Of a stretch of 64,000 bases of DNA, positions 33,809 to 49,982 are shown in pieces. A program made the translations under genes and the position numbers. Below the pieces are notes generated by a model. It searched no databases. It was not told where the DNA came from and worked only from the letters and a program-made list of their open reading frames with translations. The stretch is taken from contig NZ_CP009520.1 in NCBI RefSeq assembly GCF_000969905.1, positions 1,488,001-1,552,000 of the forward strand, given 5' to 3'. Position 1 is the stretch's first letter, and each line of letters starts with the position of its first letter. The DNA comes from Methanosarcina vacuolata Z-761 (lineage in GTDB: Archaea; Halobacteriota; Methanosarcinia; Methanosarcinales; Methanosarcinaceae).

Positions 33809-34264
33809 TTACTCCGGATTTTTTGAAATCTTTCCCATTACGTATTTTCCTGTATACGTCAATGCAACTAAGTATATCCCGGATAACCTGTCAGCTTCTG
33901 GGAAAAATATATGTGGAATTGATAACATGAAAACAAAGATTCCGAATATAAGCCATTTAACTGAATTCACTATCCCATTTGACGGGTCAGTGGAAGAAGA
34001 ACGTTTTATTTTATAATATGTCCACACTCCGAGAAGAATAGACACCGTAAAGCAAAGTGCAGCTAAAGACAATATTGCTTTTATTAATGAACCGATATCA
34101 TATAATGAACCGTCGGCATACTTGTTAAAATTGATTGCTTTGATTGCGTATACTACAAGCCATAGCAATAATGAAGAGAATACGATAATTTGGACTATTG
34201 TATTATTTATAAAAAATGAAGCTGGTTCAATTTTTTTATAATTTCTAAGATTTTCAGTAACCAA
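33809..34264 (-). CDS. Membrane protein, tandem paralogue 1
   Basis: 151 residues, unknown family. The N-terminus (ENLRNYKKIEPASFFI) is shared with the two copies downstream. Four hydrophobic segments at about 25-46, 60-84, 95-113 and 120-140, with short charged loops; the tail is GKISKNPE. All three copies keep a KIEPSS/KIEPAS motif, an INFN(K/E)Y motif after helix 1 and HIFFPE/RMFFPE after helix 3. The function is unknown; a small channel, immunity or stress membrane protein would fit. Confidence 0.7.
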   Translation of the reverse strand: MVTENLRNYKKIEPASFFINNTIVQIIVFSSLLLWLVVYAIKAINFNKYADGSLYDIGSLIKAILSLAALCFTVSILLGVWTYYKIKRSSSTDPSNGIVNSVKWLIFGIFVFMLSIPHIFFPEADRLSGIYLVALTYTGKYVMGKISKNPE

Positions 34265-34641
34265 TCAATCACCTATCTCAACACTTAACGATTAATCTTA
34301 AACACGTCTTCCTAAATTTATCTTTTGATTTTAACCAATTTTTACTGAAGATTTTCTCAACTCATCATTCCATAGACAATAAGAATATCAGAGTTTTCAC
34401 CGGTTAATAGATGGTTAAAGATCTAAAACAAGGTCTAAAACAAGATCTAAAACAAGATTTAAAACAAGGTCTAAAACATAGGAAAATAAGCCCAAAAGCG
34501 AAGCGTTTTTGAACTGGGTAAGGATTATGGAGAGCTTCTTATAATCAAATACAGGAGCTTAGAATAAGCCGTCCTTTACTCTCAAGTTAAGCCAGGGTTT
34601 ACTCACGGATACTTTGAAATCTTAGACGGCTTTTTCTCTTT

Positions 34642-35121
34642 TTACACGCATGTCTTTTCGAGGTCAGCCCCCATTTTTTTTAGCAGAGTGTCTCTTACAT
34701 ATTTTACTGTAAGCAGCAACACAATTAAGGATATTTCAAAGATTGTGTTGGATTCTGGGAAGAATATAAGTGAAATTGACATCATGAGAACAAGTAATCC
34801 TAATGTAAACCATTTAACTAATCTAATTGGCCAGTTTGACTGATTATTGGAATCTATATTTTTTGTTTTATTGTGCATCCACATTCCTACAATGATAGAC
34901 AATGTAAAGGAAATACTGGCTAGAAATAATAGTACTTTTATTAATAAATCTATACCAAGTGATGAACCGTCTGAATATTCGTTAAAATTGATTGTTTTGA
35001 TTATGTATACTGCAACAAACAGTAGTAATAAAGATAACCAGATAATTTGTATTATAATACCTTTTATAGAGCATGATGATGGTTCAATTTTATTATAATT
35101 CTGAAGACTTTCAGTATCCAA
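34642..35121 (-). CDS. Membrane protein, tandem paralogue 2
   Basis: 159 residues with the same four-helix layout as its neighbours (ESLQNYNKIEPSS, then INFNEYSDGSS, and LIFFPES after helix 3). The C-terminus diverges and is longer (LLKKMGADLEKTCV instead of GKISKN-E). It shares its spacer blocks with copies 1 and 3. It is kept open over full length, so selection probably still acts on it. Confidence 0.7.
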   Translation of the reverse strand: MDTESLQNYNKIEPSSCSIKGIIIQIIWLSLLLLFVAVYIIKTINFNEYSDGSSLGIDLLIKVLLFLASISFTLSIIVGMWMHNKTKNIDSNNQSNWPIRLVKWFTLGLLVLMMSISLIFFPESNTIFEISLIVLLLTVKYVRDTLLKKMGADLEKTCV

Positions 35122-35416
35122 TTAATCACCTATCTCAAAACTTAACGATTAACCTTAAACATGTCTTCCTAAATTTATCTTTTGATTTTAACCAATTTTT
35201 CCTGAAGATTTACTGAACTCGATTATTCCATATACAATAGGAATGTAATCGTTTTCATTGATTGCCATCAGGTTAAATATCTAAAACTTAATAAAATAAG
35301 CACAAACGGGAAGCGTTTATGAACTGAAACAGATTGTGTGAAGCTTCTTATAATCAAATACAGAAGCTTAAATAAGCCGTCCTTTACTCTCAAGTTATCT
35401 CAAGTTAAACCAGTAT

Positions 35417-35854
35417 TTACTCCAGATTTTTTGAAATCTTTCCTATTAATTGTTTTCCTGCATATGTCAATGCAATTAAGTATACATCAAAGAGGCGGTC
35501 AAATTCTGGGAAAAACATACGTGGAATTAATATCATGAGAATAAAAAGTCCGAATATAATCCACTTAACTGTATTCATTATCTCTTTTGAATTATTATAG
35601 GAATAACAACTTTTTATTTTATAACACGTCCATATGCCTTGAAGAATTGAAACTATAAAGAAAAATAAAGCTAAAAATAATGCTGCTTTTATTAATGAAC
35701 CGTCATCATATTCATTAAAGTCGATTATTTCGATCTCAGATACTGCAAACCAGAGTAATAATACAGAGAGCGCGAGAATTTGGATGATTCTATCTTTTAT
35801 AGAATATGATGACGGTTCAATTTTATTATAAGTCTGAAGACTTTCAGTACTCAT
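35417..35854 (-). CDS. Membrane protein, tandem paralogue 3
   Basis: 145 residues (ESLQTYNKIEPSS at the start, GKISKNLE at the end), nearest to copy 1 in its C-terminus and to copy 2 in its N-terminus. The loop after helix 1 is shorter by about six residues. The same spacer blocks flank it. Confidence 0.7.
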   Translation of the reverse strand: MSTESLQTYNKIEPSSYSIKDRIIQILALSVLLLWFAVSEIEIIDFNEYDDGSLIKAALFLALFFFIVSILQGIWTCYKIKSCYSYNNSKEIMNTVKWIIFGLFILMILIPRMFFPEFDRLFDVYLIALTYAGKQLIGKISKNLE

Positions 35855-37803: not shown

Positions 37804-38199
37804 ATGCTGTTAATAAAAACAAAAATCGGGCCAAGTAAGATAAACGGTATTGGTCTTTTCGCTAATCAATTTATTCCAAAAGGAACTGTAATATGGAAAT
37901 TTCACTCTGGATATGATATCAAAATTGATAAAAATGAACTTGCTAAACTGTCGGAGATAACGAAAGACTGTTTTTTGAAATACGCATATCTTAATCCGGA
38001 TACAGATAAATACATTCTATGTCTTGATGATGCTCGTTATTTTAATCACTCCGATGATCCTAATTGCATAGATGAATCTCCCATAGAAGAGAACGAAGGA
38101 ATAACTTTCGCTGCAAGAGATATACAATCAGGCGAAGAGCTTACTTCTGACTACAGAAAATATGATGCAGATTATGACTACAAAATGAGTATCCCTTGA
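37804..38199 (+). CDS. SET-domain protein
   Basis: 131 residues, a stand-alone SET domain. GIGLFANQFIPKGTVIW is the N-terminal SET motif, ARYFNHSDDPNC is the NHS(x)xPN cofactor knot, and GEELTSDY carries the catalytic tyrosine. There is no pre- or post-SET cysteine cluster. SET enzymes methylate lysines with SAM; small ones are known from bacteria and viruses. It may act on a DNA-bound or ribosomal protein, but the target is unknown. No clear ribosome binding site precedes the ATG. It ends the accessory stretch. Confidence 0.8.
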   Translation: MLLIKTKIGPSKINGIGLFANQFIPKGTVIWKFHSGYDIKIDKNELAKLSEITKDCFLKYAYLNPDTDKYILCLDDARYFNHSDDPNCIDESPIEENEGITFAARDIQSGEELTSDYRKYDADYDYKMSIP

Positions 38200-38418: not shown

Positions 38419-41400
38419 TTACATTTTCTTTTTATAGAACCCGAAATAGATTCCACCAATGGCTGCTACCACGAAGAGCATTCCAAAAATATCAGAACCC
38501 GAGAATGAGAAACCATTATCCTCTGGCTCGTCTGCGGAATCTTTCTGCATCTCATAGCCTTCAACATAATCCGGGTCAGCAGTTGATTTCGAGACCTCGG
38601 GTGCAGGTTCGGGAGAATCGATTCCATATCCTGCATCGCTCTCTACAACAGTCTGATTGTTGCTCTCCGTACTCCGAATTACAGGCGTTGAACTTCCTTT
38701 ATTGCCACTACTACTGTGTTTTTCACCATTGCTGCTTTGTTTTTCAGTTTCTTCCTGTTCAAGGGATTCCTGCGTAGCATTTTCTATTGCTTCGCTAAAA
38801 CCTGGGACCGAGACCATGCCTGATACATAGCTGTTGAGAAGGGGATTTCCGCATGTATGATGGCAGCAGGTAACTCCATCTTCGACTACGGAGTCTTCAT
38901 ATTCCGTAGCAAGGCTTTCGAGTACCTCATCAGAGGCATCCCAGTTGCCTTTGCGGGCGGTCTCCAGCATCCGGGCTGTCATGGACTGGTAAGCATAAGG
39001 ATTATTCTGCTTAATCCAGTCGCTTAGTTCCTGGTCCGCCACGTATGTCTTATACACCTGGTTCCACATGTCATCACTGATCAAATCCGGGTTCGTAGCT
39101 TCCCAGCCCCATAAGTTCTCAACGAAATCCGACATTTCCCTGGCTCCTGCATAACCGCTTCCCTGCATACCTTCAATCCACTTTGAATTGAAATATCTGG
39201 AGTAGGTTTCCCTCGTAAGAAACTTTTCCAGGGTTTCGGTTTTCTCGTCCCCGTTTGTCAGCATGTTCGTGATATATGAATCAGGGTACTTTCCTTCCGA
39301 AACGGAACTGATCGCAAGATTCAAACCTCCAAGATACTGGAAGAAATCATCATTGTCCAGAGTCCCGTAGAGGTTTGTGCTCCGGCTGTGCACTGTAGCT
39401 TCAACCCCTTCAAGGTTCTTTTCGAAAAGCTCCTTCAGGTCTTCCCCCCATACGTCTTCTCCATAGGCGTTGCACATCTTGTTGATGTAAAGCTCTGCAA
39501 GCGCGTCGTTGCTTTCCCAGGTATCACTTGAAGAGATCGCATTGGGAAGGCCTGTTCCGTAGGCGCCGTCCGAAGACCCGAAAATCCTGAGCAGGGCAAG
39601 GTCCAGAGCCTCACTATCATTAAGAGAACCGTCGCTCGTCAAAGAAGATTTCAGTGCATCAGCATTTTCCCGGACATAATTGGGAGAGTCTTCCTGGGCA
39701 TAAGCCAGTTTTACGGCCTTGTCCAGCAGGCGGACCTTATCAGGGTACATGTCCCTGTAGAGCCCGGAAATCTGCACTACCACATCAATTCTTGGCCTGC
39801 CCAGAGTCTCCATGGGAATAGCCTCCACATCAACTACTCGGCCGCTGTTCCATACAGGCTTGACCCCGAGCAGGTAGAGAATCTCAGATTCCATAACTCC
39901 CTCATGCCTTGTGGTTTCTCCTGCCCAGAGGACATACGCTACCTTTTTAGGATAAGTCCCGTGCTCGTCAACATAAGCTTCAAGCATCTGGTCAGCCATC
40001 TCCTGCCCTAAAGTCCAGGCAGCTTCGGTCGGCACTATCCGCTGGTCAAAAGCATAGAAGTTTCTTCCAGACGGCAGAGTTTCAGGATTTCGAACAGGGT
40101 CGCCTCCGAGGTTTCCGAGGATAAACTTGCCGTCCAGGGCATTGAGCACCTGATCGATTTCCTCTTCCCCGAGAGACAGGTTTGCAGCATAGTCTTCCGC
40201 ATTTGAAAGGAAGGTACTGACGTTTTCATTGCTTTTCCCGAGCACCTGCTTCTGAGCGGCTGTGGAATTGACTCCCTGGTTGAGGACAAGGTCAAGCAGA
40301 TAGAGCTGAGCCCCTTCGGTTTTATTGAATTCATTAACCGAATCAGCAAAGTCAGTTCCGAGCATTGAATTTACCATACCTGCAAGCTGCTCTCCTTTCG
40401 GGCTTGTACCAAGGACATGCAGCCCGTAAGGCATGGACTGACTCTTATACTCGTCCAGAAGATCTTCAAGCCCCTCCAGGAAAGTTGTATTAAAATAAGT
40501 CTCGTTGTTTTCTGCCTCTGTCATGTTGAATTCTTCATCCAGGGAAAGAGACTGAGTCAGGTTTAAAATTTCAGACCTGTGAGCCGCTTTAAGGGATGCG
40601 TCTGCCTCGGCCTGTTCATAGTTCTGGATAGCTTCGCTTAGATTTGAATAATTTCCATAGCTTCCTGCTGAAATAATCGGGGGTACAAGATGGTCAACAA
40701 TGACTGCTCCTCCTCTGCGCTTTGCCTCATTTCCTTCCCCAAGCCCGTCCATGACATAAGGATAAATCACGGGCTTATCACTTATCATCAGGGAAGGCCA
40801 GTCATACCGAGAAAGCCCGAACTCTTTTCCAGGTAGCCATTCCTGAGTCCCATGCCTGCCGAAGTGAACAAGGGCATCACTGCTGAACCCTCCTTCCTCC
40901 TCGGAATGCTGGAGCCAGAGGTAGAAAGCAATGTACTGGTGGTGAGGAGGTAAATCATTGTCGTGATAGAGAGCCTCGTTATCATCAAGCCAGCCTCTTG
41001 AAGGCTGTGGAGCCAGAATCACATTCTTCCCGACCTCGATCCTGGGAATCACAAGGTATTTTCCAGTCTCGTTTTCCCATACCATAATCTTTCCAGGTGC
41101 AGGGCCCCACTGGTCAATGACCTCCTGCTGCCTCTCTTCAGGGAGTTCCGAGAACCATTTCTCATAGGTACTTTCTGGGAGGAGAACGACTTTGCCGGTA
41201 TCAACCATTTTCTGGAGTTCCCCAGGCGCCCAGGTCCCTATGTTTATACCCTGGGTAAGCATCAAATTCAGGAGTTCAGTTTCGTTTAAGGTCTGGTTTT
41301 CATTCAGGGCATATCCGTCTTTAGCCATAGCGCCAAGAAGGTTGGATAAACTTGGAATGACATCGAGATAAGAAGCCCCTATGTTATCCTTCCCTCCTCC

Positions 41401-43098
41401 GTGATTATAATAGATTATAGCAACTTTTTTGTCCGACTCCGGAATTTCACTGAGGTTCACCCAGCTCTCCACACGGTCAACGAGCCAGTCTACCTGGTAA
41501 TCTATGGAAACCGAAGTTTCAGTCTCGGTTTCGGAATCTACTTCCGTTGCAGCCATTATTACCGGGTCAATAGCTCCCCAGAGTTCCTGCAAATCGAGCT
41601 TCATCATCTTATCCGAAGGAAGCGGCCTGCTGCTGGCTTCGTACTCGGTCCTGTTCATGTAATTATCAATAATGCCGTTGATTACAGGCACATCGAGCTC
41701 TTCGGCATCAAACTTGTTGCCAAAGTACGTAAATGAAATAATTGCATCCACAAGGACCTCATCCCCCTGCTTGAAAAAGTCGCCGGAGGAAAGGTTATCA
41801 GATCCGTATGTAGCAATAACATTGTAGCCTTTTGCTTCCAGTTTTGAGATCAGGGCATCAATTGGCTCAATCTGGAAGGGGAAATAGCTCTGGTACATGG
41901 TAATTGCAATTGTAGGCTTTGCAGGGTCGTATACATGCCCTCCGTCGCTTCTGTTTGAATACCAGGCAAGATAGGTATCCAGAGAATCGGTAAAGTAACC
42001 TGTCATGTTCGTGTGGTATATCGCCCTTTCTGGAAGCGTATGCGGATCCTCATATATCAGGTCAGACCTGCCACAGCAGTCACTGGCGATGCAGAATATA
42101 AGATTTTTCAGGTTGTCCTGGTCGTAAGCCCCATTAAGCCAGTAGTTATTCAGTTTTTCCCTGTAGCTTTCAATCTGGTCTTCAGGAAGAGGGATGCTCT
42201 CATTCAGAAGGGTATCGTCATCAATAACCACACACCCGTTGGCAATTGCACTGTCCACAGTCGGTGTGATTTTCTGGGCCGTCGAAGGACTGAGCATGTT
42301 GATGTATATTATGTCCATTGTACTCAGGTCAACGTCATTTTCCATCACGTAGTCAGCCATAAAACAGCTAAGAGTAAGGTTCAGGCTGTTGTTACTGTTT
42401 ATCCCTTCCGCCAGGTTTTTGAGTGGGAGTTCATGGCTCCTGTATCCGGTCACAATGGCAATGTTCAGGTGCTGGCTGCTGCCGGAATTACTTCCAACCT
42501 GGCTGGAGTTATCCTGAATCTGGCTGGAATTAATCTGAGTTTCACTGGAATTATCCTGAGTTTCACTGGAATTACTCTGAGTTTCACTGGAATTACTCTG
42601 AGTCTCGCTGGAATTATCCTGAGTTTCTGTTCCAGTTTCCTTTAACAAAAGAACGTTTGTGGAACCCAGAGGGATAGGGTCGTCATTCATCTGTTTCTGG
42701 CGGGTGAGTCCACTGATTCTGGCACTGCCAGACAGACCAGCCTCACTGACAGGCAGGTCAAGAAGGGCCTGAGACTCATTTTCATCGATATTCCTGCTTG
42801 AGGTATCAAGATTCACTATAAGGTCCGTTCCGTTTTGAACCTGAATTTGTTCATCGGCACGGCGCCATTTGTCCTCGTTGTAAAGAGCTACAAGCGTATA
42901 GTTTCCGTCGGGAATGTCGGAAAGCAGGTAATTGCCTTCAGCATCGCTGGTTGTGCTGGCAACGAGTTCATACTGAAGATCTCCGCTTCCAGCCGCCGGA
43001 GAAATCGAAAACAACGTTAAAAGCATAAAAAATGCCAGTATTGAAACCTTAGTTTTTTTGTTCAAAAGGTTCGTTTCTTTATTCAATTGTTCATTCAT
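38419..43098 (-). CDS. Exported, membrane-anchored CobN/Mg-chelatase H-like protein
   Basis: 1559 residues. It begins with a signal peptide (about 17-36), then a carboxypeptidase-regulatory-like beta domain (about 45-97; DAEGNYLLSDIPDGNYTLVAL), a Ser/Thr/Asn/Gln-rich stalk (about 150-207) with SSETQ(D/S)N repeats, and the CobN-type chelatase large subunit (about 210-1450). FGRHGTQEWLPGK and GLGEGNEAKRRGGAVIVDHLVPP are hallmark motifs. A Ser-rich linker and one hydrophobic helix ending in YKKKM form the anchor (about 1530-1559). So the chelatase-like part probably lies outside the cell. CobN normally inserts cobalt into a corrin; here it is divergent from cbiM, suggesting cobalt capture or corrinoid handling. 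The start follows GCAGGAA. Confidence 0.85.
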   Translation of the reverse strand: MNEQLNKETNLLNKKTKVSILAFFMLLTLFSISPAAGSGDLQYELVASTTSDAEGNYLLSDIPDGNYTLVALYNEDKWRRADEQIQVQNGTDLIVNLDTSSRNIDENESQALLDLPVSEAGLSGSARISGLTRQKQMNDDPIPLGSTNVLLLKETGTETQDNSSETQSNSSETQSNSSETQDNSSETQINSSQIQDNSSQVGSNSGSSQHLNIAIVTGYRSHELPLKNLAEGINSNNSLNLTLSCFMADYVMENDVDLSTMDIIYINMLSPSTAQKITPTVDSAIANGCVVIDDDTLLNESIPLPEDQIESYREKLNNYWLNGAYDQDNLKNLIFCIASDCCGRSDLIYEDPHTLPERAIYHTNMTGYFTDSLDTYLAWYSNRSDGGHVYDPAKPTIAITMYQSYFPFQIEPIDALISKLEAKGYNVIATYGSDNLSSGDFFKQGDEVLVDAIISFTYFGNKFDAEELDVPVINGIIDNYMNRTEYEASSRPLPSDKMMKLDLQELWGAIDPVIMAATEVDSETETETSVSIDYQVDWLVDRVESWVNLSEIPESDKKVAIIYYNHGGGKDNIGASYLDVIPSLSNLLGAMAKDGYALNENQTLNETELLNLMLTQGINIGTWAPGELQKMVDTGKVVLLPESTYEKWFSELPEERQQEVIDQWGPAPGKIMVWENETGKYLVIPRIEVGKNVILAPQPSRGWLDDNEALYHDNDLPPHHQYIAFYLWLQHSEEEGGFSSDALVHFGRHGTQEWLPGKEFGLSRYDWPSLMISDKPVIYPYVMDGLGEGNEAKRRGGAVIVDHLVPPIISAGSYGNYSNLSEAIQNYEQAEADASLKAAHRSEILNLTQSLSLDEEFNMTEAENNETYFNTTFLEGLEDLLDEYKSQSMPYGLHVLGTSPKGEQLAGMVNSMLGTDFADSVNEFNKTEGAQLYLLDLVLNQGVNSTAAQKQVLGKSNENVSTFLSNAEDYAANLSLGEEEIDQVLNALDGKFILGNLGGDPVRNPETLPSGRNFYAFDQRIVPTEAAWTLGQEMADQMLEAYVDEHGTYPKKVAYVLWAGETTRHEGVMESEILYLLGVKPVWNSGRVVDVEAIPMETLGRPRIDVVVQISGLYRDMYPDKVRLLDKAVKLAYAQEDSPNYVRENADALKSSLTSDGSLNDSEALDLALLRIFGSSDGAYGTGLPNAISSSDTWESNDALAELYINKMCNAYGEDVWGEDLKELFEKNLEGVEATVHSRSTNLYGTLDNDDFFQYLGGLNLAISSVSEGKYPDSYITNMLTNGDEKTETLEKFLTRETYSRYFNSKWIEGMQGSGYAGAREMSDFVENLWGWEATNPDLISDDMWNQVYKTYVADQELSDWIKQNNPYAYQSMTARMLETARKGNWDASDEVLESLATEYEDSVVEDGVTCCHHTCGNPLLNSYVSGMVSVPGFSEAIENATQESLEQEETEKQSSNGEKHSSSGNKGSSTPVIRSTESNNQTVVESDAGYGIDSPEPAPEVSKSTADPDYVEGYEMQKDSADEPEDNGFSFSGSDIFGMLFVVAAIGGIYFGFYKKKM

Positions 43099-43579
43099 AA
43101 TTCCTGCTCCAGAAATAATCGATTTTTCCTCACTCCAAAAAATAATTGATTTTTCGCGCTGCGAGGATATTATTAAATAATCTTGAGACTGCGCGCTACT
43201 TGCAAGAAATCCCTTATTCTTTCACTTTTAAATTCTTCATTAACAGACATGAAAAATCAGATCAATAAGAACGAGAAATCGCATAGTGCACAGATAAATA
43301 AAGTAAACTTTACTTATCACTCCAAAGAAAAACATCATCAAATATCCTTAATCAAAAGGTATTTTAAAGAAAAATAATCTCACAAATTTTAAGTTACTCA
43401 CCTCAGTAACGTAAATTATTACGTAATTTCAGCTCAATTTTAGTTTACTTGTATAAAAGACTAAGATTTTAGGTAATAGTTGTTATCCAGAAAGGTAACT
43501 TATAAAGGAAAAGTGCAAATTACGGCATAAAATGCTATTAATTGAACCTGTTCATTGGACCTATTAACCGAAATGTGAA

Positions 43580-43771
43580 TTGACTTGCTAATCAACTTGC
43601 TAATTGACTTGCTAGTTGACTTGCTAATCGACTTGCTAATCAACTTGATACTCGACTTGCTACTCTACTTGCGAATCAACTTGCTAGTTGACTTGCTAAT
43701 CAACTTGATAATCGACTTGCTACTCGACTTAATACTCGACTTGATACTCGACTTGATAACCGAACCTGTTA
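43580..43771. repeat. 12-bp tandem repeat between the CobN-like gene and cbiM
   Basis: Units such as CTTGCTAATCAA, CTTGATACTCGA and CTTGCTAGTTGA repeat about fifteen times. It translates to a Leu/Ile/Asp repeat that is not a gene. Confidence 0.85.
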
Positions 43772-44163: not shown

Positions 44164-44859
44164 ATGCATATAATGGAAGGATTTTTACCTGCTATTTGGT
44201 GTATAGTTTGGTTTGCAATATCAATACCAGTTGTTGCATTAGGTGTTTACAAACTAAATAAGTTAGTGAAAGAAAAACGTGAAATTTTACCTTTGCTTGC
44301 CGTCGCAGGTGCATTTGTTTTCGTACTTTCTTCACTGAAAATGCCTTCGGTTACCGGAAGCTGTTCTCACCCTACAGGAACAGGCATAGGTGCGATCATG
44401 TTTGGGCCTGCTATTACTGCAGTTCTCTCAACAATTGTGCTTATCTATCAAGCTCTCTTCCTGGCACATGGCGGTCTGACCACCCTTGGAGCCAATGTAT
44501 TCTCTATGGGCATTGTGGGTCCTGTTGTGGCTTATTGTGTGTATAAAGCAGGCATGAAAGCCAATCTTAATTTATATCTTGTCGTATTTCTCGCTGCAGC
44601 CTTTGGGGACTGGGCTACTTATGTAACTACCTCTGTAGAACTTGCCCTGGCTTTTCCGGCAGCTTCCGGCGGATTCCTTGCTTCATTTACTAAGTTTGCG
44701 ACTATTTTTGCAGTAACTCAGGTGCCCCTTGCAATCATGGAAGGTGCCGTAAGTGCCTTGCTCTTCAAGTATGTTGTTAATGTCAAAAGTGACATCCTTG
44801 TGGAAATGAAAATTATTGAAGATAAAGTTGTGAAAAAGTTGAGGGGGACTTCTGCATGA
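44164..44859 (+). CDS. cbiM: Cobalt ECF transporter substrate-binding component CbiM
   Basis: 231 residues, starting MHIMEG: the family keeps a His at position 2, which with neighbouring residues binds the metal. About seven membrane helices, with [18 protein letters not shown] and [19 protein letters not shown], both hallmarks of CbiM/NikM. It captures Co(II) (nickel is the alternative cargo of close relatives) in the cytoplasmic membrane. It overlaps cbiN by 4 bp (ATGA). Confidence 0.92.
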
Positions 44860-45191
44860 GCAGAAAGCTGGAAATTATAGTACTTGCCATTTTCCTGATC
44901 TTTGCGGCGCAGTTCATTTATATGTCTTCAACTACGGATGCTGAGTACGGAGGAGCTGACGGGCAAGCCGAAAACGCAATTAATGATATTACTGGCGGGA
45001 CCTATAAACCAATTGCAGAACCTATTTGGGAGCCTCCAAGCGGGGAAATCGAAAGCCTCCTTTTCGGTCTTCAAGCAGCCATAGGTGCAGGAATTCTCGG
45101 ATACTTCTTTGGTTATTACAGGGCTAAGAACAACTATGAAAAAAAAATCGGGTTCAAAACCGGAAGTGAACCTGAAAAGCAATCTCTATAA
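44856..45191 (+). CDS. cbiN: Cobalt ECF transporter auxiliary protein CbiN
   Basis: 111 residues with two membrane helices (about 6-24 and 68-88) and an extracellular loop between them ([19 protein letters not shown] then [24 protein letters not shown]). The GYxP/[13 protein letters not shown] motif is typical of CbiN and NikN. It contacts CbiM to open metal loading. It is coupled to cbiM by an ATGA overlap. cbiQ and cbiO are about 2.6 kb away, after the CDF gene, so the set is split. Confidence 0.9.
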
Positions 45192-46560
45192 AAACATCTT
45201 CTGTACATTTTAAAAACATCTTCTGTACATTTTTCTTTGCCATATTCTTTTTCCTTCCTTCTAAGAAGGAAAGTTTTTCTCTTCCAGTTTTTAATATTCA
45301 GTTAATGGGCTTGAGTTATTGAAAACCGCAAGCAAAAGAAGTTCTATTTTTCTCAAATTAGGGAGATTTACTATTTTTTCGGAATTGATCAATAATTTCC
45401 GGACACAAACCAAACATTTTTAATCTATTTTAATTTTTAACGTATTTTGTCAACTTTGGCAAAACCTCGTATGTAATAATTGCCTCAAGCGGATTGTGAT
45501 TATACGCAACTCCACAGCTCAATAAGTCTTTTGTTTCCAAATAGATACAGCTTCATCCATCTTCAGTTACGTGAAGAATCGTGATAAATTGCGTCCGTTT
45601 CACAGCATTTATCTAATGTTTTAACAAATTGTTAGATAGAACAAGGTATCGATTTCATGCAAACAGGCTAAAATTTAAGTCTGACTTCTAATGTAAAGTC
45701 GATAGCTTTCAGGCAAGAAAGTTTCTTAACCGATGGTCAATGGATACATCTTTGCCTTTGTAATTTTGAGTTTTCCTGCGGAGTATTTGCATATAGTTTT
45801 CCAAACAGATTTCTGAAACTCTTTTTCCCCAGTCCTGATTTCTGCAAAAATTGATTATATATAAAAGTTTTTGTTTAGGGGAGTCGGAATGGAAATTTTA
45901 TGAAAATTTGGCAGGAAAACACAAATTTAATTGTATTCTCTGTTCTTCCGTTTAGTTATTATTTTGCATGTATATGTTTTTCAGATATCATCATACTACT
46001 TAATAATTCATTATTACTTGTTTTCATTAGATAATTAATTGTCTGAATTCCTCATAAATTTGTATTATATTGTGAGAATTTGTAATAATGAGATTTTGAT
46101 ATTTATTGAAAATTCGAATTTTTCGTTGCACTAAAAGATTGAAGCATTATATGAGTTCGTCAGTCCATACGAAAAATCAGTATCAATGACTATTGTCAAT
46201 ACACGGGAATATCCCATCTCTAATTTTCAGTAATAAATATCTAATTTTTTGCTTCTTTCGGGAAGGTTAGCTACAAACTGATCGTGATGGAAAGCTCCTT
46301 TATATAACATTTCTCCAAAAAAACGTATGAATCCCAGCATAAAAAAATATTTTCTAAAGATAAATACCTATTTATAAAACGGCCTCCAAGTGTTCTTATT
46401 GAGCTCATACCGTTGATCAAAATTTGCTCTTTGAATTTCGTCCTTTCGGTAACCAATTGAGTCTCTTGTCATGAAAGAGCAATTCTGGAAATTTCTGATT
46501 ATCAGGAATGAAATGGGCTTCAAGATATACTCTATAATAAAAATACTTATGAGGTCAGTT
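45192..46560. other. 1.37-kb intergenic region inside the cobalt locus
   Basis: No supported gene. It contains a 25-bp direct duplication at 45190-45234, an inverted repeat TATCTAA/TTAGATA at 45610-45638, and a 93-nt element (45652-45744) also found near 62.7 kb. A decayed gene is possible. Confidence 0.55.
45652..45744 (+). other. 93-nt conserved intergenic element, copy A
   Basis: Aligns without gaps to 62641-62733 (minus strand); I count 72 of 93 identical. The best block is GGCAAGAAA..TT.CTTAACCGATG..CAATG. Function unknown: an RNA gene, leader or mobile remnant. Confidence 0.6.
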
Positions 46561-47703
46561 ATGTCTGAAAAGCATTCTAATCCTTATCCCAATAGAGAGG
46601 AGGACGGTTCCGAACAGTTCCATGAGAATATCCGCAAAAAAGGATTTTTCAATTTTCTCTCCAGTTTTCACGTTAATTCTCATGACCACTCCAGTACTCA
46701 CGCCCATACGCACTCCCACAAGCACAGCCATACACATGGAACTGTTGACCCTTCCGTAATTGCTACCAGTAAAGGGCTCTGGGTTGTCAAATGGTCATTT
46801 ATAGGATTGATGATCACAGCTGTCCTGCAGATTATCATCGTTTATATGTCAGGCAGTGTTGCCCTTCTTGCCGACACCATCCATAACTTCGGGGATGCAT
46901 CGACTGCAATTCCTCTTGCAATAGCTTTTTCCCTGGCTGGAAGAAAACCAAGCAAACGCTTCTCCTACGGGTATGGCAGAGTAGAGGATCTTGCAGGCGT
47001 GATCATCGTTTTCCTTATCCTTTTCAGTGCGATTGTAGCAGGATATGAATCTGTAAATCGCTTCTTTAACCCGCAGCCGATAGATCATTTGCAGGCTGTG
47101 GTTGCTGCTGGAATTATAGGCTGTATCGGAAACGAGGTTGTGGCCCAGTTCCGGATGAAGATCGGGAAAGAAATAGGTAGTGCAGCTCTTATTGCTGACG
47201 GCTACCACGCCAGGGTAGATGGCTTTACCAGCCTTGCAGTCCTTATTGGAGCTGCAGGAGTCTGGCTAGGATACCCGATAATTGATCCTCTTATTGGTAT
47301 GCTAATCACAGTAACAATCCTGAAAATAGTCCTTGACACAAGCAAACTCGTGTTTACTCGCCTTCTTGACGGTGTTGAACCTGAAATCATCGATAAGGTA
47401 AAGAATATTGCTGAGAGTGTTGAAGGCGTTTATGAAGTTACGGACCTTAGAGTCCGCTGGATCGGGCACCAACTCCACGCAGAGATCAATGCTTCGGTTT
47501 CCCCATCTCTTTCTATTGAAGAGGGGCATGAAATTGCTAACGCGATAAGAGAAAAGCTTCTGGAGAACTTTTCCTATCTTTCCGGAACAACTATTCATGT
47601 AGATCCACTTACAGCCTCAGGGGAAAGCTGTCATTGCGGACATGATAATTCGGAAAAAATACATGGGAAACAAAAGAATATTTTAGTTGCTTATCCCCAA
47701 TAA
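46561..47703 (+). CDS. Cation diffusion facilitator (CDF) transporter, His-rich N-terminus
   Basis: 380 residues from the ATG at 46561; GAGGT lies just upstream, and the longer frame from 46471 adds non-family sequence. The N-terminus holds a histidine run (about 48-63; HVNSHDHSSTHAHTHSHKHS), then six helices with ALLADTIHNFGDASTA (the HxxxD metal site of helix 2) and LIADGYHARVDGF (helix 5). The C-terminal ferredoxin-like domain ends with a CHCGH cluster. CDFs export Zn, Co, Ni or Cd. Sitting between cbiMN and cbiQO it probably balances cobalt or a related metal. Confidence 0.9.
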   Translation: MSEKHSNPYPNREEDGSEQFHENIRKKGFFNFLSSFHVNSHDHSSTHAHTHSHKHSHTHGTVDPSVIATSKGLWVVKWSFIGLMITAVLQIIIVYMSGSVALLADTIHNFGDASTAIPLAIAFSLAGRKPSKRFSYGYGRVEDLAGVIIVFLILFSAIVAGYESVNRFFNPQPIDHLQAVVAAGIIGCIGNEVVAQFRMKIGKEIGSAALIADGYHARVDGFTSLAVLIGAAGVWLGYPIIDPLIGMLITVTILKIVLDTSKLVFTRLLDGVEPEIIDKVKNIAESVEGVYEVTDLRVRWIGHQLHAEINASVSPSLSIEEGHEIANAIREKLLENFSYLSGTTIHVDPLTASGESCHCGHDNSEKIHGKQKNILVAYPQ

Positions 47704-47826: not shown

Positions 47827-48609
47827 ATGACCAATATCCTTGACGATTATGCCCTAATGAGCCCCCTCAGGCACCGAAACAACTGGTTAAAATTGGCGAT
47901 AGTATTATTCGGCCTACTCGCGGGAGTTTCAGCCACGTCCCCAATTCCTCCTGTTTTTATAGCATTGTGTATGAGTTTTGCAACAGTGGCTCTTGGCAAG
48001 GCGCCTCTTAAAACTTATTTCAAGCTCTTGCTGGCTCCTCTGGGTTTTGCTATTGCAGGTATTCTTATTATTGTCTTCTTTTCCGGGTCGGGGCCTGAAT
48101 TGTTGTCATTCAAATTTCTCGGTTATCCTCTCTCTGTAAGAACAGATGGACTTGAGCTTGCCATGCTGGTACTTGCAAGGTCAATAAGTGGGATGTGCTG
48201 TCTTTATTTCCTCGCGCTGACAACCCCTATGATCGAACTTTTTGCCGTACTCAAAGCTGCCAGGCTTCCGGAATCTCTTATAGAACTTTCAATGCTTATA
48301 TACAGGTACATCTTTGTTTTCCTTGACATGGCTCTTTGCATAAGGTATGCTCAGACTGTAAGACTCGGGTACTCAAACTTCAAGCGTTCTATAAATTCTC
48401 TTGGAATGCTTGCAAGCACTCTCTTCATCCGTTCCTGGGAACAGGGAGACAAGCTCTTTCTGGCAATGAATTCCAGGTGCTATGACGGAAAAATGACTCT
48501 TTTTGAGGTTAAGAGGCCGGTAAAGGCAACAGAATTACTTTTAACCTCTGCTTACTTTATTTCAACTCTTGCACTGTTTTATTTTACAAAAAGCATATCC
48601 ATTTTTTGA
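47827..48609 (+). CDS. cbiQ: Cobalt ECF transporter T component CbiQ
   Basis: 260 residues with GAGAGGATC before the ATG. Five or six membrane helices; the C-terminal SWEQGDKLFLAMNSRCYDG carries the conserved AxxARG-like coupling helix of T components. It transmits ATP hydrolysis by CbiO to CbiM. It is followed by cbiO with an 11-bp gap, so the two are in one operon. Confidence 0.9.
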   Translation: MTNILDDYALMSPLRHRNNWLKLAIVLFGLLAGVSATSPIPPVFIALCMSFATVALGKAPLKTYFKLLLAPLGFAIAGILIIVFFSGSGPELLSFKFLGYPLSVRTDGLELAMLVLARSISGMCCLYFLALTTPMIELFAVLKAARLPESLIELSMLIYRYIFVFLDMALCIRYAQTVRLGYSNFKRSINSLGMLASTLFIRSWEQGDKLFLAMNSRCYDGKMTLFEVKRPVKATELLLTSAYFISTLALFYFTKSISIF

Positions 48610-48620
48610 GGTAATAGATC

Positions 48621-49982
48621 ATGATCATTCTTGAGACCAGGGACCTTAAATATACATACCCTGACGGAACTGTAGCTATTCAGGACCTGAACATTGAAAT
48701 CAAAAAAGGAAAAAAGGTAGCTTTCGTAGGGCAAAATGGTTCCGGAAAGTCCACGCTTTTTCTTTTACTTAACGGGACTTTAAAACCAGCTGAAGGTGAT
48801 GTCTTTTTTCATGGAGTTCCTTTTAAGTACGATTCAAAATCCCTCAGGGAAATCCGAAAATCCATAGGAATTGTTTTTCAGAATTCCGATGACCAGATCT
48901 TTGCCCCTACAGTGTACCAGGATGTAGCTTTCGGGCCGGCAAACCTGGGTTATTCAAAAGAAAGAGTTGATACCTGCGTACAGCAAGCCCTTGAACAGGT
49001 GGGGCTCTCCCGTTTAAAAGATAAGCCGCCCCATCACCTCAGTGGAGGACAGAAAAAACGGGTTGCAATTGCCGGGATTATGGCAATGGAACCTGAAGTG
49101 ATTATCCTTGACGAACCGCTCTCGAATCTTGACCCTGTAGGCGCGGATGAAATCATGGATTTGCTTAACGAATTTAACCAGTTCGGGAGCACCATTATTA
49201 TCTCTACTCATGATGTGGATTTAGCATACCGCTGGTCTGATTACGTGTTCCTGCTGTCAAACAGCAAAATTATAGGACAGGGCACTCCGGCAGAAGTTTT
49301 CAAAGATTTTGACCTCCTCAAAAAAACCGGGCTCAGACAGCCTACTACTCTTGAGATCTATCATGAAATCGAAAGACGAGGGCTTGCATCTGGAGGAAAT
49401 TCCCCAAAAACCATCCCTGACCTTGTCAATACCCTAAAACCTATTGACCTTATATGGGTTGATGTTCCTCCGGGAATCAAAGAAGGAGATAGCCTGAACT
49501 TAGGGATCATGTACGGACAGTATGCGACTCAGTCCCCTTACGAAGCTGTTAACGCTACCGTGCTGCATATCCATCCAGACGGAAGGGCTATTGTTGAGTT
49601 AAAGCGTAAAGGGATCAAAGCCGGCGGAGTCCTGATTTATGACACTGATAATTATTCTCTGCCAGAAGTAAAACAAATACTTAAGGAAGGAGAAATTGTC
49701 TTTGTCGGAGCAATGGGTAAAAAAAGTAAAATTCTTGCTGAGCATGATGGAATCAGGTTGGATGTTTCCTCAGGCGTTATAGACAAAACTATCCTGACGG
49801 CCCTTTGTGGAAAACGTTGCCTTATCCTTACGGCTGGAGGGATGGTTGACCATGCCCTTAAGAGAATAAAGGAGTATGTGGAGACAAGCGGGATAGAGTT
49901 TACTGTTGGAGTTGTTAACAGGGAAGAAGATTATCAGTGGATCGGAGAGACTAAGGACAGCCCTGAAACGTTTGAGGTATGA
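48621..49982 (+). CDS. cbiO: Cobalt ECF transporter ATPase CbiO with C-terminal extension
   Basis: 453 residues, much longer than bacterial CbiO (about 280). The first 275 are an ABC ATPase: Walker [10 protein letters not shown] (about 37), Q-loop FQNSDDQIF, signature LSGGQKKRV, Walker [18 protein letters not shown]. The final 170 residues form a second, alpha/beta-looking domain (from about 285; [34 protein letters not shown]), perhaps regulatory; I recall similar extensions in archaeal CbiO. The start follows GAGGTAA. Confidence 0.9.

Follow-up and report, generated by a model that had tools for sequence, protein, structure and literature searches.

The archaeon Methanosarcina relies heavily on corrinoid methyltransferases and on cobalt. 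In the 64,000-nucleotide stretch of the Methanosarcina vacuolata Z-761 genome analysed here (the window; the source genome comprises 4.56 Mb in two contigs), a gene for a CobN-like chelatase homolog with hydrophobic segments at both ends lies divergent from the genes of a cobalt importer. This raises the question of whether such a protein is placed outside the cell and, if so, on which metal or metal tetrapyrrole it acts. The first-pass annotation of this locus had proposed extracellular cobalt capture, or corrinoid demetallation and scavenging. Its observation is confirmed overall by the analysis described below, and its interpretation is partly supported.

Architecture and predicted location of the CobN-like protein

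The open reading frame has exactly the bounds given in the first-pass annotation, and the following features were located within it.

38419..43098 (-): exported CobN-like class-I chelatase homolog, 1559 aa
42985..43098 (-): predicted signal peptide region, residues 1-38
42781..42966 (-): weak CarboxypepD_reg-like beta-sandwich, residues 45-106, below threshold
42481..42636 (-): Asn/Ser/Thr/Gln stalk with NSSETQx repeats, residues 155-206
38923..42147 (-): CobN core, residues 318-1392
40849..40866 (-): HFGRHG motif, residues 745-750
39325..39357 (-): DNDDFFQYLGG motif, residues 1248-1258
38851..38868 (-): CCHHTC motif, residues 1411-1416, between core and anchor, a possible metal-binding site
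38434..38499 (-): predicted C-terminal transmembrane anchor, residues 1534-1555, then KKKM

A Pfam search matches the core to PF02514 at 1130 bits over profile positions 2-1089 of 1090, and the NCBIfam model NF004645, "cobaltochelatase subunit CobN", matches at 2583 bits, which bears out the CobN-type core reported in the first-pass annotation. The HxGxHG motif is present with its conserved histidine. Hydrophobic segments occupy residues 16-38, after a pair of lysines, and residues 1534-1555, with none between them, in agreement with the signal peptide and C-terminal membrane anchor that had been described. The Ser/Thr/Asn/Gln stalk was also correctly recognized, given that residues 111-205 are 52% S/T/N/Q and contain six NSS repeats. 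The weakest element of the architecture is the beta-sandwich domain, for which a CarboxypepD_reg match exists but lacks the first ~25 profile positions and scores 21 bits against a Pfam cut-off of 32.

As a test of location that is independent of hydrophobicity, we counted N-glycosylation sequons. The whole protein contains 33 sequons, compared with 14.9 expected from shuffled sequences (z = 5.1). The stalk repeats add to this whole-protein count; a slice of the core, which excludes those repeats, contains 17 sequons versus 7.0 in shuffles (z = 4.2). The cytosolic CobN paralog of the same genome (L001) is depleted, with 2 sequons versus 6.0 expected. Enrichment was also observed in other exported CobNs of Methanosarcina, but not in bacterial exported ones. 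Since sequons are enriched in the window CobN and depleted in its cytosolic paralog, these counts support an extracellular core, and we infer that the CobN core lies outside the membrane. The topology prediction that the first-pass annotation had suggested as a check gives an exported layout, with which the sequon enrichment agrees, and on this predicted topology the protein is almost certainly extracellular. A cytosolic CobN of the CobNST type would carry neither signal peptide nor anchor; here, both ends are hydrophobic and sequons are enriched. Thus, the window CobN has the exported and membrane-anchored layout of the BtuS type, apart from cytosolic CobN and ChlH.

The cobalt importer operon and the relatives of the window CobN

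Divergent cbiMN genes had been noted beside cobN, and both are present as part of a full cbiMN-(CDF)-cbiQO operon. The operon and the elements in the cobN-cbiM intergenic region are as follows.

44164..44859 (+): cbiM, cobalt ECF transporter S component (TIGR00123, 311 bits against a cut-off of 184)
44856..45191 (+): cbiN (PF02553; NF002780)
46471..47703 (+): CDF-family cation efflux gene within the importer operon (profile matches)
47827..48609 (+): cbiQ (TIGR02454)
48621..49982 (+): cbiO, ECF ATPase (TIGR01166)
43301..43315 (no strand): perfect palindrome AAGTAAACTTTACTT, candidate operator
43578..43763 (no strand): 12-bp tandem repeat array, 15.5 copies of AATCGACTTGCT

The CDF gene is found in the importer operons of the window genome, G003, G005 and G029, and not in those of G027 or G004. 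The palindrome has one match in the window versus 0.05 expected at one mismatch, and it is the only perfect AAGTAAACTTTACTT site in the genome. At zero or one mismatch it also occurs upstream of orthologs of the window CobN and of two CobNs that are ~50% identical to it, and a near-match lies ahead of a cbiQO pair close to a CobN cluster of the M. acetivorans-like genome G001. A regulon defined by this palindrome was considered and rejected, as no obvious metal gene follows any of the other near sites in the genome. No convincing promoter motif is shared by cobN and cbiM, and an Rfam scan of the window detected no cobalamin riboswitch or other regulator at the cobN locus and just a PYLIS element far off. 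The scanned genes neighbouring cobN include no CobS/CobT-type ATPase partner and no hmuY, hmuR or hmuTUV; the DUF2162-MotA/ExbB-DUF2149 gene set, a frequent but not universal companion of BtuS-type genes, is also absent from the locus. Two further observations concern the other flank of cobN: a stand-alone SET-domain protein of 131 aa, in an archaeal host, adjoins it (37804-38199), and three tandem, similar small membrane proteins, homologs of which recur at related loci, are encoded at 33809-35854.

CbiM is present in 31 of 31 Methanosarcina genomes, and CobN homologs often number several per genome. A cobN of the window type is directly divergent from cbiM in the window genome and in G027 (L010, L134). 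We measured the significance of this placement in 11 near-complete genomes, in two of which CbiM lies within 2.5 kb of a listed CobN versus 0.24 expected (P ~0.023), a result that is weak evidence because the genomes are related and hand-picked. The adjacency on which the first-pass annotation leaned is real but limited to few genomes and modest evidence alone, and with this P value it was rejected as proof.

Related importer operons face other candidate partners. In Methanosarcina G005, the exported CobN opposite the cbiMN-CDF-cbiQO operon is a different one (41% identical), followed by NosD and then by a secreted B12-binding domain protein that carries DSHTFG, a DxHxxG motif. In G003, G004 and G029, the genes opposite the importer encode NosD and this B12-binding protein, and in G002 the genes for these two proteins are just upstream of the ortholog of the window CobN, ~11 kb from cbiM. 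Examples of the secreted DxHxxG protein adjoining NosD are at L130:15812-16366 and L160:8317-8865. The window genome has no close copy of it, its own best match being 55% identical.

Among bacterial relatives, a sense cobalamin riboswitch precedes a cobN-containing operon at 17 loci, with no intervening opposite-strand ORF of more than 120 aa; these loci were picked by similarity to the window CobN, so they are a non-random set, and some are mutually close relatives. They span Nitrospirota, Thermodesulfobacteriota, Deferribacterota, Verrucomicrobiota, Methylomirabilota, Bacteroidota and Pseudomonadota. The riboswitch was not found at the scanned loci L042, L048, L061, L062, L066, L067, L073 and L077, nor at some shorter ones. 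The operons of the bacterial relatives contain TonB receptors, BtuF and CbiZ, with CbiZ or a BtuF-CbiZ fusion near several of the cobN genes. CbiM, CbiQ or CbiO is encoded within ~10 kb at L042, L046, L047, L048, L058 and L079, and also on the cobalamin plasmid of Trichlorobacter lovleyi.

The CC-x-H-T-C motif, which in the window CobN reads C1411-C-H-H-T-C1416, is a candidate metal-binding site. Almost every archaeal exported CobN has it, as do the relatives from Nitrospirota, Thermodesulfobacteriota, Deferribacterota, Methylomirabilota and Methylacidiphilum; relatives from Sphingobacteria, Reichenbachiella and Duganella have a two-Cys form, and cytosolic CobN and ChlH lack the motif. No report of CCHHTC or CCDHTC was found in the papers searched, and we likewise found none of the palindrome AAGTAAACTTTACTT. 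The idea that the motif strictly marks cobalamin-riboswitch operons was rejected, since the Duganella and Reichenbachiella relatives have the riboswitch but only the two-Cys form without CCxH; it is also contradicted by a Marinifilum relative (L073), which has the motif but at which the riboswitch was not found.

The plasmid of T. (Geobacter) lovleyi, pSZ77 (PMC3403914), offers a close parallel in context. Its CobN is of the exported type and shares CCxHTC with the window CobN, and it is accompanied by a cobalamin riboswitch, the DUF2162-MotA/ExbB-DUF2149 set and CbiMNQO on the same plasmid. In contrast to the window CobN, to which it is ~34% identical, it is bacterial, occurs with TonB receptors and lacks a stalk. 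The authors of that study already suggested a cobalamin role for this CobN and noted that CobS and CobT are missing (PMC3403914).

Function: cobalt and corrinoids versus other substrates

The predicted architecture, the CobN-type motifs, the adjoining CbiMNQO genes and the relatives in cobalamin-riboswitch operons can all be read from sequence. Our preferred explanation, held with moderate confidence, is that the window CobN is an exported, membrane-anchored chelatase homolog of the BtuS/HmuS type that serves cobalt or corrinoid scavenging at the archaeal surface. A cobalt or corrinoid role as such is probable; actual removal or exchange of cobalt by the protein is a more tentative proposal. 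The riboswitches and the CbiZ, BtuF and CbiMNQO genes near bacterial relatives, together with the B12-binding protein at the importer operon in related species, carry the assignment and suggest cobalt or corrinoids as the substrate. Against it count the confinement of the cbiM adjacency to a few genomes, the lack of a cobalamin riboswitch at the window locus and the lack of a close copy of the B12-binding protein in the window genome. The ligand would be a tetrapyrrole that contains cobalt, whether a corrinoid, a product of corrinoid breakdown or a Co-porphyrinoid, bound in the CobN cleft around H749, D1250 and D1251. Speculatively, the protein might then release or exchange the cobalt, which could pass by way of the C-terminal CC-x-H-T-C site to CbiMNQO. 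To our knowledge, enzymatic extraction of cobalt from a tetrapyrrole has not been described, and if cobalt does leave a corrin here, this would be new chemistry for biology. Cobalt is not readily removed from cobalt corrins without destruction of the ligand (PMC6771967), so plain B12 de-chelation would require that the corrinoid be destroyed or altered, that the substrate be a Co-porphyrinoid or that the metal be exchanged, and the corrinoid demetallation put forward in the first-pass annotation is chemically doubtful. Its cobalt/corrinoid link and surface location hold up better, although exported CobN homologs were already known, namely HmuS, BtuS1/2 of Bacteroides fragilis, which are predicted to be periplasmic (PMC6460266), and "BtuS" of M. 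barkeri. The new elements are the assignment to cobalt or corrinoids, the motifs that set the protein apart from HmuS, the CCHHTC site and the evidence from gene neighbourhoods.

Does the protein perform any metal chemistry? It may instead be a corrinoid-binding or relay protein, whose chelatase cleft captures corrinoids and passes them to an importer. An exported CobN lineage (L130_8846, L118_2684, L109_925, L037_5390 and L032_290) has lost the otherwise universal HxGxHG motif, reading FTIFSS, and has kept CCHHTC; from these sequences, it probably binds rather than catalyses, which raises the odds of binding alone for the window CobN too. Several genomes retain this lineage, one member of which adjoins cbiMN and the gene for the secreted B12-binding protein. 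That member (L130:8846-13375, in G005) is divergent from cbiMN. The difficulty of removing cobalt from corrins and the TonB receptors, BtuF and CbiZ of the bacterial operons are also consistent with binding alone. However, the window CobN retains H749 and DNDDFFQY, and the importer that it adjoins is for free cobalt ions, not corrinoids. We consider binding without chemistry possible but unlikely.

A second alternative is that the window CobN is an archaeal HmuS, taking iron from external heme. HmuS of Bacteroides thetaiotaomicron (PDB 9d26, 9p4s) is a membrane-bound, NADH-dependent heme de-chelatase in which His538 is essential (PMC12583661), and it is the nearest solved structure to the window CobN by sequence, before CobN and ChlH. 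The two proteins share export, transmembrane regions at both ends, a class-I core and the HFGxHG histidine, with His538 aligned to H749. An AlphaFold2 model of residues 250-1449, built from 35 sequences (mean pLDDT 87.4, pTM 0.86), also gives HmuS as its top fold match (Z 39.5-39.7), followed by CobN (38.7) and ChlH (up to 37.5), and the C-terminal CobN domain of 9fpc superposes on it with an rmsd of 1.5 over 378 residues. These scores are nearly tied, so the fold is unable to choose between functions. Heme-iron salvage has, moreover, been proposed for M. barkeri, in which two "BtuS" proteins vary in level with the iron and sulfur source (PMC10846266). That response could reflect iron and would then count against the preferred cobalt/corrinoid reading. 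To judge from map position, the window gene may have its ortholog in MSBRM_1640, one of these M. barkeri proteins.

The active-site residues argue against a heme de-chelatase. Where HmuS reads LSLDHxxEFMGG (SLDHVYEFMGG at the aligned motif), with His1209 and Glu1212, the window CobN reads LDNDDFFQYLGG, with D1251 and Q1254 instead. The resulting DxDDxxQ pattern is common to Mycobacterium CobN (DSDDYFQYHGG) and 9uk9 CobN (DSDDYYQFEGG), and nearly all aligned bacterial relatives carry this CobN-type pattern. In a pairwise alignment, the axial heme ligands Met79 and His254 of HmuS are replaced by L269 and Y458, replacements that are less secure because the head-domain alignment is weak and shifts are possible. 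The Met-rich HmuS insertion of ~120 residues is missing, with 31 residues (929-960) in the window CobN versus ~199 (714-913) in HmuS, which leaves no space for it. Thus, the comparison with true CobN that the first-pass annotation had recommended shows, at the sequence level, active-site motifs of the CobN type rather than the HmuS type. CobN of the aerobic CobNST complex (PDB 7c6o, 9uk9, 9fpc) shares the core fold and the DxDDxxQ motif, but is cytosolic and requires the CobS/CobT ATPase, whereas the window CobN is predicted to be exported.

Phylogeny and context point the same way. In a quick LG+G4 tree of 82 sequences, the window CobN groups with archaeal exported proteins in a clade of 43 rows, near which lies a bacterial clade of 26 rows, with HmuS from hmuY operons (L154, L155), cytosolic CobN, ChlH and L001 outside both; its deep branching order is unsure, because support is by SH-aLRT only and several branches are long. 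Genuine hmu operons have hmuY, and no cobalamin riboswitch was detected at the two hmuY operons scanned. Unlike HmuS, the window CobN is archaeal, has an N-terminal stalk and CCHHTC, and stands beside a cobalt importer without hmuY or hmuR. We therefore regard the HmuS reading as improbable. The window CobN would nevertheless be annotated as BtuS, a family of exported CobN-like proteins proposed for metalloporphyrin salvage (PMC6460266, PMC10846266); the published role of that family is in heme iron, whereas the context in the window points to cobalt or corrinoids.

F430 is abundant in methanogen habitats, and ECF transporters are also able to carry nickel. Handling of another metal tetrapyrrole (nickel F430 or its breakdown products) or of other metals nonetheless appears the least probable explanation, given that the adjoining S component, CbiM accompanied by CbiN, is of the cobalt type, and that cobalamin riboswitches are found at bacterial relatives, even though related exported CobNs act on iron (HmuS) or are regulated by zinc (PA1923, PMC4542158). 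PA1923 of Pseudomonas aeruginosa is CobN-like, and its operon has a TonB receptor and an ExbD-like gene, but it is Zur-regulated and responds to zinc starvation (PMC4542158), so the wider exported-CobN family is not cobalt-only.

Returning to the preferred cobalt/corrinoid reading, archaeal CobN homologs without cob genes, which are listed as being of unclear function in the HmuS study (PMC12583661), gain a testable hypothesis, namely that they act on cobalt or corrinoids instead of heme. The analysis names residues that separate the window CobN group from HmuS, and puts forward partner proteins together with a candidate operator and metal site. A wider proposal, which we regard as doubtful, is a surface cobalt-tetrapyrrole system in Methanosarcina, in which exported CobNs (some catalytic, some binding-only), the secreted B12-binding protein and the CC-x-H-T-C site would take up corrinoids or Co-tetrapyrroles, release or exchange cobalt outside the cell and transfer it to CbiMNQO.

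Other CobN homologs in Methanosarcina

The cytosolic CobN of the window genome has a separate ChlI/D-type fusion ATPase (TIGR02442) ~6 kb away. The region of the cytosolic CobN and the ChlI/D-type fusion (L112:5039-9016, L132:1198-3252) lies beside ECF-type transporter genes. A third CobN of this genome (L113) is adjoined by DUF2162, MotA/ExbB and DUF2149 genes (L113:11777-13575), and this locus contains the genome's only MotA_ExbB match. The same gene set is common to L113, the hmu operons and most of the riboswitch operons. As this group of archaea lacks an outer membrane, the set may, speculatively, act on CobN itself. The DUF2149 protein at L113 looks ExbD-like, having an Asp where its transmembrane segment begins. 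Finally, G001, a 5.75 Mb genome from an M. acetivorans-like Methanosarcina, has nineteen CobN matches, some of which are pieces of one gene and many of which are arranged in tandem clusters.
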